This document shows, in pieces, positions 143-8,573 of a stretch of DNA of 8,654 bases. The stretch is from assembly GCA_021781255.1 (NCBI GenBank), contig JAJXXG010000460.1, positions 1-8,654 on the forward strand, written 5' to 3'. This DNA comes from Acidobacteriota bacterium. GTDB taxonomy: Bacteria; Acidobacteriota; Terriglobia; Terriglobales; Acidobacteriaceae. The first letter of the stretch is position 1. The number at the start of each line of letters is the position of its first letter. Below the pieces are notes generated by a model. That model did no database searches and was not told where the DNA came from. It was given only the letters and a program-made list of their open reading frames with translations. A program made the translations under genes and the position numbers.

Positions 143-205
143 TGTCATCCTGAGCGGCCGAGCTAGCCGCAACGGCCTAGCGAGGGATTCGAAGGATCTG
201 CGGTT
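143..205 (+). repeat. Dispersed head-core-tail repeat, copy A
   Basis: The head TGTCATCCTGAGCG (143-156) and tail ATTCGAAGGATCTGCGGTT (187-205) flank a GC-rich imperfect palindromic core (157-186). The core can fold as GGCCG 156-160 with CGGCC 173-177, or as GCTAGCC 162-168 with GGCCTAGC 174-181. The head is identical to those of the copies at 7745 and 8214. The tail differs from theirs at two positions. The copy lies in non-coding DNA between metG and argS. Within the full element ATCCT of the head can also pair with AGGAT of the tail, so it could form an extended hairpin. Its function is unknown. Confidence 0.85.
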
Positions 206-365
206 GTCTTCTTAAACGAGCTTCAGGGTCAGCACATGAGCAACGATTACCCTCTATCTTAAGACATTGTGCTTGGCGCCTCTGCCTCAACCGTTGCCGC
301 GCCCGCTAACTGGCGAATCCGCTCCATCGCAGATGATAAAATCACTTGGATAATCAAGGATTTTC

Positions 366-4326: not shown

Positions 4327-4392
4327 CTAGAGTCTGTTATTAACTTTCGCGTGGCCTGCGCAGGGCGCTCGAAAGTTGATAACAGGCTCTAG
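4327..4392. repeat. 66-bp near-perfect palindrome between lptB and rpoN
   Basis: The left arm 4327-4349 (CTAGAGTCTGTTAT...) pairs with the right arm 4370-4392 over 23 positions. Only two pairs are non-Watson-Crick (4333/4386 and 4341/4378). Both would be G-U wobbles in plus-strand RNA and A-C mismatches in minus-strand RNA. The 20-nt centre contains the perfect 10-bp palindrome CCTGCGCAGG (4355-4364). The outer CTAG on the right supplies the lptB stop codon. The ends read GAGYCTGTTAT and are flanked by TA (or CTAG), which would suit a short transposon-derived inverted-repeat element. No T-tract follows in either direction, so it does not look like a standard terminator. A related sequence, CTGGAGTCTATTATC, occurs at 4253-4267 with 12 of 15 positions matching. 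Confidence 0.85.
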
Positions 4393-7744: not shown

Positions 7745-7808
7745 TGTCATCCTGAGCGAATTCTGGCGCATTTATTTTGCGCCAAAATGAGTCGAAGGAC
7801 CTGCGGTT
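7745..7808 (+). repeat. Dispersed head-core-tail repeat, copy B
   Basis: The head TGTCATCCTGAGCG (7745-7758) and tail AGTCGAAGGACCTGCGGTT (7790-7808) enclose a strong hairpin. ATTCTGGCGCA (7760-7770) pairs with TGCGCCAAAAT (7778-7788) around the loop TTTATTT, with a single C-A mismatch in 11 positions. It occupies most of the 145-bp gap between the 7851-8573 gene and the lptC/A-like gene, so it would sit in the transcript if the two are co-transcribed. No promoter was recognised in that gap. Confidence 0.88.
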
Positions 7809-7850: not shown

Positions 7851-8573
7851 CTAGTTCCTCATTCCCAATCGCGCCGCAAGCCGCTGCGCAAGGCTCTCGC
7901 CCAGCTCGCTCCACAGCAGGCGCGCTGTGGCTCCGGAATCTCTTTCCACGGCCTGAGTGAGACCGACAAGCTGGCGGACGTTCTCTTCGACATGTCTGGC
8001 GCCCACCTGGTCCAGCTCGGCGTCTTCCTCAAGAAACGGCGTGTCCGTGCCGAAGTCCACGCGGATATGCCCCTCCTGCTCATACGCGCCCTCGTCGAAG
8101 AGCGGCCCAAAGCCCGTCACACGCACTAGCCGCGCCTCCCGCACCCAGCTCCCAAAATGCTTTTCATCCTGAGCGCTCAAATTCGGATTGTCATCCTGAG
8201 CATCTTCTTGGCTTGTCATCCTGAGCGAGTCAGCCAGGGGCTGATGAGTCGAAGGACCTGCGGTTGCTTCTTTCAGCTCCCACAAACTCCATCCAATCTG
8301 GAATTCGTAGGCATAGTCCTCGTGCAGCAGTTCCAGCGCTTCTTCGACGGCTTGCCGCGGCTCGGTTCCGCGCGCCGGCCCGTCCCCCGCACGCCCATAA
8401 ATCCGCTGGAAGACCGGCGCCTCGTTCCAGCTCACCGGCCACACCGTGGCGGCGTACACCCTGGCCTCGCCGCCGTGCGCGGCAAAGGCGCCCAGCACCG
8501 CCGTCAGCTTGTCGGGGAGCGCCTCCAAGCGCAGATTCGGGTACCACAGGCTCAGATAAAGCGTGTCGGACAT
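7851..8573 (-). CDS. Uncharacterised protein carrying an in-frame repeat insertion
   Basis: I do not recognise a family for this 240-residue protein. It has no signal peptide or membrane helix, and is acidic with many aromatics, consistent with a soluble cytoplasmic protein. The N-terminal part (1-100) begins MSDTLYLSLWYPNLRLEALP and contains AAHGGEARVYAATVWPVSW, and FQIGWSLWEL at 91-100. The C-terminal part (141-240) has VTGFGPLFDEGAYEQEGHIRVDFGTDTPFLEE and a helical end. Between them, residues about 103-137 are encoded by repeat copy C and look unlike the rest (Ser/Asp/Gln-rich, with AQDD and AQDE repeated). Without them the protein would be about 205 residues. The ATG has no clear Shine-Dalgarno sequence. 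It lies 11 nt after a probable upstream stop codon, so translational coupling is plausible. It precedes the lptC/A-like gene on the same strand, with a repeat between. Codon use and the ordered flanks suggest a real gene. Confidence 0.75.
   Translation of the reverse strand: MSDTLYLSLWYPNLRLEALPDKLTAVLGAFAAHGGEARVYAATVWPVSWNEAPVFQRIYGRAGDGPARGTEPRQAVEEALELLHEDYAYEFQIGWSLWELKEATAGPSTHQPLADSLRMTSQEDAQDDNPNLSAQDEKHFGSWVREARLVRVTGFGPLFDEGAYEQEGHIRVDFGTDTPFLEEDAELDQVGARHVEENVRQLVGLTQAVERDSGATARLLWSELGESLAQRLAARLGMRN
8164..8265 (+). repeat. Dispersed repeat copy C, triplicated head, inside a coding gene
   Basis: Three heads lie in a row: TCATCCTGAGCG (8164-8175), TGTCATCCTGAGC (8189-8201) and TGTCATCCTGAGCG (8214-8227). 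They are followed by a hairpin, TCAGCC (8230-8235) and GGCTGA (8239-8244) around AGG, and one tail AGTCGAAGGACCTGCGGTT (8247-8265). The span is 102 bp, exactly 34 codons, and contains no stop in the minus-strand reading frame of the host gene. Heads 1 and 2 are 27 nt apart and encode AQDE and AQDD in the same frame. Head 3 is 25 nt further on and is read in another frame, giving LRMTS. Confidence 0.9.

Follow-up and report, generated by a model that had tools for sequence, protein, structure and literature searches.

A dispersed palindromic repeat, for which we coin the name REP-A, lies in frame within a gene of an 8,654-nucleotide stretch of acidobacterial DNA (contig JAJXXG010000460.1 of assembly GCA_021781255.1), which is referred to as the window. 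With a probability of about 0.8, this segment represents a mobile but non-autonomous palindromic element that was inserted in frame in a tolerant loop of a conserved protein of acidobacteria. Rickettsia provides the best-known cases of palindromes inserted in frame, and the linker formed by REP-A in the host protein is most likely a tolerated, fast-changing linker, predicted to be disordered, that derives from a mobile element resembling the Rickettsia palindromes.

A sequence-only reading of the window had placed the repeat at 8164–8265, open in the host frame and contributing about 34 residues. The arm, the stem and the ends were all located there on the minus strand (Table 1), with the CCTTCGACT arm at 8247–8255 and the left arm reading ..GCAACCGCAGGTCCTTCGACT in gene orientation. 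The head of the repeat was said to be triplicated inside the host gene, and the CTCAGGATGA end is indeed found three times on the minus strand, at 8216, 8191 and 8164. Two details of the earlier description need correction: the outer arm extends to about position 8273, and the three ends do not share a reading frame, since SLRMT is read from the first and AQDD or AQDE from the others. The same repeat had been reported from two intergenic regions and was recovered in both, at about 144–208 and at 7746–7808. As had been noticed, one of these copies meets a TAA in the equivalent frame (AGPSTHFGAK*); the other meets stops as well.

Table 1 Positions of the host gene, its linker and the REP-A copies in the window (ORF, open reading frame)
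Feature	Position	Strand	Remarks
Host gene, 240 aa	7851..8573	-	Acidobacterial protein; Pfam and NCBIfam searches without match
Variable linker, residues 101-142, 42 aa	8148..8273	-	From comparison of homologous loci; 9 aa in 51/80 loci
In-frame REP-A insert, residues ~103-137	8164..8265	-	Reads AGPSTHQPLADSLRMTSQEDAQDDNPNLSAQDEKH; open in host frame
REP-A constant left arm (..AAAGAAGCAACCGCAGGTCCTTCGACT)	8247..8273	-	From comparison with genome copies
REP-A variable core, 20 nt	8227..8246	-	6-bp hairpin stem TCAGCC/GGCTGA at 8230-8244
REP-A right arm GCTCAGGATGAC, copy 1	8215..8226	-	In-frame reading SLRMT
REP-A right arm, copy 2	8190..8201	-	In-frame reading AQDD
REP-A right arm, copy 3, edge changed	8164..8174	-	In-frame reading AQDE
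Intergenic REP-A copy, different hairpin core (TTTTGGCGCA..TGCGCCAGAA)	~7746..7808	-	Equivalent frame hits stop
Intergenic REP-A copy, different core, upstream of argS-like ORF	~144..208	-	Equivalent frame hits stops

In the predicted structure of the window protein, the predicted local distance difference test score (pLDDT) is below 50 at residues 104–121 and 123–131, and this stretch is flanked by strands 87–100 and 143–155. The flanking halves are modelled with confidence, in agreement with the earlier description of a segment between two ordered-looking halves. Taken together with the homologs described below, this model shows the REP-A segment to be an insertion in the loop joining the two strands, where it is predicted to be disordered. 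A Foldseek search with the host protein gave no match at an E value of 0.001; its fold may bear a weak similarity to CdiI/TsiT immunity proteins. A plasmid search with the window region also yielded no match.

The linker was compared in 80 homologous loci, the best 80 of 133 when ranked by similarity to the window protein. Its length is 9 aa in 51 loci, 10 aa in 4, 5 aa in 2 and 14–75 aa in 23, compared to 42 aa in the window. Homologs lacking the segment, proposed from the sequence alone as a check of the insertion, thus account for 57/80 loci (5–10 aa), and relatives without the insert have a clean 9-aa linker with no visible remnant. In a second reading of 12 loci missed by the pattern (L225, L226, L227, L229, L239 and L243 left out), 9-aa linkers were found in L241 and L248. 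Of 300 genomes surveyed in the family, 268 have the host gene, and the majority of the matches listed are split at residues of about 100–108 and 141–143. A survey of the genus found the gene in 76 genomes, in 14 of which the alignment is unbroken over nearly the full length of the insert-bearing query. Ten listed distant matches (45–48% identical) align unbroken over residues 1–237. The four of these that were readable (L228, L230, L231 and L232) have an Asp/Pro-rich linker of about 30 aa (EIDPNYPNPDIDPDSDIDPEYQ.. and similar), which is not REP-A, indicating that the loop accepts other inserts too. A segment conserved in distant homologs had been named as an argument against an inserted repeat; no such case was found, and the longer linkers of these four are unrelated to the segment.

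The linker changes faster than any other part of the host protein, and its earlier description as exapted, which would imply a function, is not supported. The rate of change was assessed in 191 proteins obtained from two homolog searches, each represented by its best 120 matches (of 3962 and 3536, respectively); 187 of the proteins were parsed. Linkers longer than 14 aa (20–92 aa) are present in 172 of the 187. For pairs with flanks 96–98% identical, the median linker identity is 0.30 (1265 pairs, 1083 of which differ in linker length), compared to 0.35 at flanks 75–85% identical, which indicates that the linker is saturated by about 3% flank divergence. At 98–100% flank identity, the median is 0.96 (298 pairs) with a minimum of 0.20. 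P0047 and P0113 have different linkers at 200/200 identical flank residues, while the difference between P0026 and P0037 (flanks 99.5%) is one 9-aa AQDD unit. Flank identity is a protein-level value, and in loci with DNA the identity at fourfold sites is 0.63 at 90–95% and 0.89 at 95–100% protein identity; pairs at ‘97%’ may therefore still belong to different species.

A swap of the hairpin core inside a resident element was considered as the source of these differences and rejected. Among 146 pairs with flanks at least 96% identical, both arms are at least 70% identical in 10, and the core is less than 40% identical in 0/10, so that linkers differ as whole blocks and not in the core alone. 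By eye, the pair P0026/P0040 (187/200 flank residues) looks like a single core swap. A DNA hairpin kept by selection in coding copies was likewise not supported, as no general signal was obtained (z of +0.7 to −2.4 for 20 linkers with 30 shuffles each). Among the folded linkers, hairpins appear intact by eye in L012, L023 and L056 and decayed in others. Synonymous conservation of arm codons is 0.83 versus 0.55 in the flanks, a biased comparison that is not relied on, since arm positions were picked by best consensus match.

In our own reading, REP-A occurs in the linkers of 15 of the 80 loci and of the window, in degenerate form in L003, L004 and L005. Two further repeats were found in the same loop. 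Repeat B (CCACCCCACG..CGTGGGG..) is present in the linkers of L010, L021, L032 and L056, with L250 as a fifth case, and repeat C (GCCGG..CAGGAG..CCGGCGCTAC) in those of L007, L010 and L016; both are found elsewhere in relatives' DNA too. In L021, L032, L056 and L250, repeat B amounts to exactly 14 extra codons between linker codons 5 and 6. The sequence-only reading had considered that some mechanism might turn repeats into protein sequence. This holds as a description, as three families and repeated gain of units have built many different linkers; a dedicated mechanism does not follow from it.

On a tree of the flanks (80 rows, L071 left out; a weak tree, being built from a single short gene), the minimum number of changes is 13 for 16 REP-A carriers, 4 for 4 B carriers and 3 for 3 C carriers, gain and loss being indistinguishable in these counts. 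Shuffled labels require a mean of 14.8 changes (standard deviation 1.1) compared to the 13 seen for REP-A, and a mean of 18.1 compared to 16 for any repeat. A single clade of the B carriers L021, L032 and L056, a group chosen after the tree had been seen, was rejected by the approximately unbiased test (p-AU 0.009). These results bear on the alternative that one or a few old insertions were inherited and decayed, with losses, and that recurrence is only apparent, resulting from a poor gene tree and recombination of linkers between lineages. Such a history is unlikely, given the three different repeat families in the loop, the rejected common clade of the B carriers, change counts near those of shuffled labels and the clean linkers of empty relatives, although it would fit the weakness of the tree, a left extension shared by part of the REP-A carriers and the finding that arm-sharing pairs are also similar in core, as if linker alleles were inherited or exchanged as blocks.

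Two side observations concern the host protein. A further, related arm pair ..CATTCGACT..GCTCAGGGCAGG.. is located upstream of REP-A in the linker of L006 and in several of the searched proteins (e.g. P0120 and P0128) and may be a fourth repeat type. A second loop at residues of about 60–70 is variable in length in L036, L038, L043 and L067 (the part before the linker comprises 96–130 aa); REP-A, B or C were not noticed in this loop, where no systematic search was made.

As a dispersed element, REP-A is found in many acidobacterial genomes. The strict pattern is present in 11 of 12 relatives' genomes (0–74 copies each, with 28 in Terracidiphilus gabretensis S55) and, counting G005, in 22 of 247 genomes sampled from the whole phylum, with 0 matches of the reversed control in both cases. 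In 880 kb of related loci, a looser pattern gave 45 matches versus 3 for the reversed control. By eye, about 17 of these 45 fall in conserved genes by chance, one recurring ferredoxin-like spot accounting for 12, so that the reversed control understates chance for this pattern. With chance matches removed by eye, no other conserved gene with REP-A was found in the 880 kb around the host gene.

Based on 117 strict copies from the relatives' genomes, the constant left part consists of an A-rich edge and GCAACCGCAGGTC-CTTCGACT, and the constant right part of GCTCAGGATGAC-A followed by a weakly T-rich stretch. Edges that are A-rich on the left and T-rich on the right suggest that intergenic copies could be two-way terminators. 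The 117 copies contain 96 distinct cores. Their longest stem averages 5.2 bp, compared to 3.1 bp in shuffled cores, and is at most 2 bp in 37 cores, mostly short ones. In genome G018, pairing amounts to 96.4% in a 13-bp stem, and all but one of the 13 pairs vary on both sides. The covariation score of 0.689 (shuffled mean 0.176) was reached by 0/500 shuffles, and shifted partner columns gave 0.08–0.15; the score refers to this one genome (18 copies, 16 listed, 13 listed copies of 54 bases aligned) and to a stem structure drawn from the same copies, with shared ancestry partly controlled. All four pair types occur at three stem positions in G018 and both arms are invariant, which is reminiscent of a palindromic barcode. 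Invariant arms together with strong stem covariation within one genome raise the question of the process by which palindromes of this kind are copied or corrected.

The location of REP-A relative to genes was assessed for 119 distinct genomic copies, which were taken from 80 chosen stretches and 30 search loci and include two copies of the host gene. Gene-like ORFs contain 17 of the 119 copies, compared to 278 of 550 random positions, so REP-A copies avoid genes, though not fully. Pfam or NCBIfam was used to scan twelve of these REP-A-bearing ORFs, a set that leaves out L086, L159 and those in antisense. Besides the host gene, ten in-frame copies with matching protein on both sides were identified in nine genes of different kinds, namely those of UbiD (L083), a copper ATPase (L095), dihydropteroate synthase (L148), TsaD (L162), IspE (L170), MnmG (L174, split twice), TrmFO (L206), CCA-transferase (L217) and ValS (L195). 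The comparison with Rickettsia palindromic elements (RPEs) made from the sequence alone fits this result. When aligned residue by residue with solved relatives, the queries break between residues 42 and 72 (L083), 82 and 111 (L162) and 371 and 399 (L206), at points where the structure chains are nearly continuous. L206 was at first assignable to MnmG from its GIDA domain, an assignment rejected in favour of TrmFO by comparison with solved structures. Bracketing by matching protein gave no match for L097 and was unconvincing for L180 and L215.

The reading is AGPST..AQDD, or nearly so, in seven of the ten in-frame copies; L162 uses another forward frame, and L195 and L206 are read from the reverse strand. 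The AGPST frame is open in 92 of 128 REP-A copies and the other frames in 91, 60, 112, 107 and 0, so that openness alone would give the AGPST frame in about one case in five. A binomial probability of about 0.001 was computed by hand for this preference, a value qualified by the core that the two L174 copies share. Among 120 MnmG relatives, about a dozen of which are near-copies of the insert-bearing query, two sites vary in length (0–42 and 3–61 aa), and REP-A-like sequence is found in 44 and 45 of them, respectively. The two copies in the mnmG gene of L174 (genome G006), at residues 148 and 581, have nearly the same core, as if duplicated or converted within the gene.

In the favoured explanation, REP-A was inserted in frame in a loop that joins two strands and tolerates the extra residues. 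Insertions would occur genome-wide, and selection would remove nearly all of them except those in exposed loops able to become disordered linkers, where the preferred orientation and frame would spell the small polar peptide AGPST..AQDD. After insertion, right-arm units of about nine codons may be gained and lost, and whole linkers may be replaced between lineages via new insertions or recombination. We infer mobility, selection against most genic insertions and neutrality of the linker. A wider proposal is put forward tentatively: a palindromic family whose arms are constant and whose self-complementary hairpins differ from copy to copy might be a recurrent source of in-frame disordered loops across Acidobacteriaceae proteomes, with site-directed insertion (the same codon boundary in independent lineages), and certain conserved proteins might thus have loops with hypervariable slots, subject to rewriting within a species. 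With MnmG as a second case, the host protein offers empty, filled and expanded states across many soil-bacterial sequences. These states make it testable how selfish repeats turn coding, which loops tolerate them and whether the loops gain a use.

Several points weigh against an inserted mobile repeat in a merely tolerant loop. The term ‘mobile’ is based on the dispersal and the scattered distribution of REP-A. The samples of 80 loci, 191 proteins and 120 MnmG relatives were ranked by likeness to insert-bearing queries, and insert frequencies are biased accordingly. Long linkers free of repeats exist, both in the four distant homologs (about 30 aa) and in the P0140 group (23 aa). The left extension (GG.SA..KATA) is common to several species of the window's clade, so part of the REP-A linkers there is inherited and does not represent a fresh insertion. 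Persistence of REP-A linkers over such distances could mean use. The alternative in which the linker is selected, so that a fast-changing sequence built from repeats has a job (e.g. partner choice) with the repeats as raw material, is judged improbable; the possible weak likeness of the host protein to CdiI/TsiT immunity folds would provide a setting for it. Furthermore, insert-bearing host-gene copies of known source come from metagenome-assembled genomes, and among the 80 loci those of the six named strains show linkers of 5–10 aa, 0/6 carrying the insert. The same would be expected from an assembly or gene-calling artefact of repeat-rich metagenomes. This explanation is already largely refuted and highly improbable, since divergent linkers also occur among P0063, P0126 and P0128 (flanks 97–98% identical), which are single-member clusters on contigs of 514–678 kb, since the reading frame downstream of the linker is kept in 79/80 loci (L071 runs off its contig) and since a named strain, Occallatibacter savannae AB23, has its UbiD interrupted by an in-frame copy (L083 in G009).

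An insertion of a palindromic repeat in a tolerant loop can be compared with known systems. RPEs are found in frame in many genes, and a 2024 review asks whether this also occurs elsewhere (PMC10969869). Like REP-A, they are, as described there and in PMC3733652, dispersed palindromic repeats that are intergenic as well as in frame in many unrelated genes, to which they add peptides. REP-A differs in belonging to another phylum with soil-bacterial hosts, in its size (about 45–75 bp versus about 150 bp for RPEs), in having constant arms around a hypervariable core and in recurring in the same loop of orthologs, where other repeat families land too. GTAG and CGTC repetitive extragenic palindromes (REPs) are described in the relevant sections of Di Nocera (2013, PMC3733652) as short hairpin repeats, mostly intergenic and in some cases in frame within genes, with different REPs at about the same site in recB of two Xanthomonas species; according to the same sections, CGTC repeats are without a dedicated transposase. 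In the profile of the 117 copies, GTAG is found at neither edge of REP-A. The edge is TGTC instead of CGTC, with T as the base outside GTC in 94% of the copies (A after GATGAC), and the stem varies among copies with covariation, unlike in these REPs. Inverted repeats are also retained in translated mitochondrial genes of Nematomorpha, where the arms are reported to encode conserved protein regions, whereas REP-A arms form a dispensable, variable linker (PMC6649704). In the open-licence literature, no reports on REP-A or on such insertions in Acidobacteria were found.

Repeat families tied to Y1 transposases (TIRYT) are reported from Acidobacteria in the part of the Di Nocera paper that covers them (PMC3733652), and Y1_Tnp genes are present in 12/12 relatives' genomes. 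The REP-A right arm (at most one mismatch) was detected within about 1.5 kb of 3 of 30 fetched Y1_Tnp loci, two of the three being the same place; the 9-base left-arm word is too unspecific to be counted near these loci. REP-A thus differs from the TIRYT repeats, and RAYT-driven movement is not supported. Among the 30 fetched loci no Y1 transposase could be linked to REP-A, other transposases not having been searched. Apart from REP-A, the window contains a 37-nt inverted repeat with overlapping, 86% complementary arms at 4327–4392, between an rpoN-like and an lptB-like ORF.
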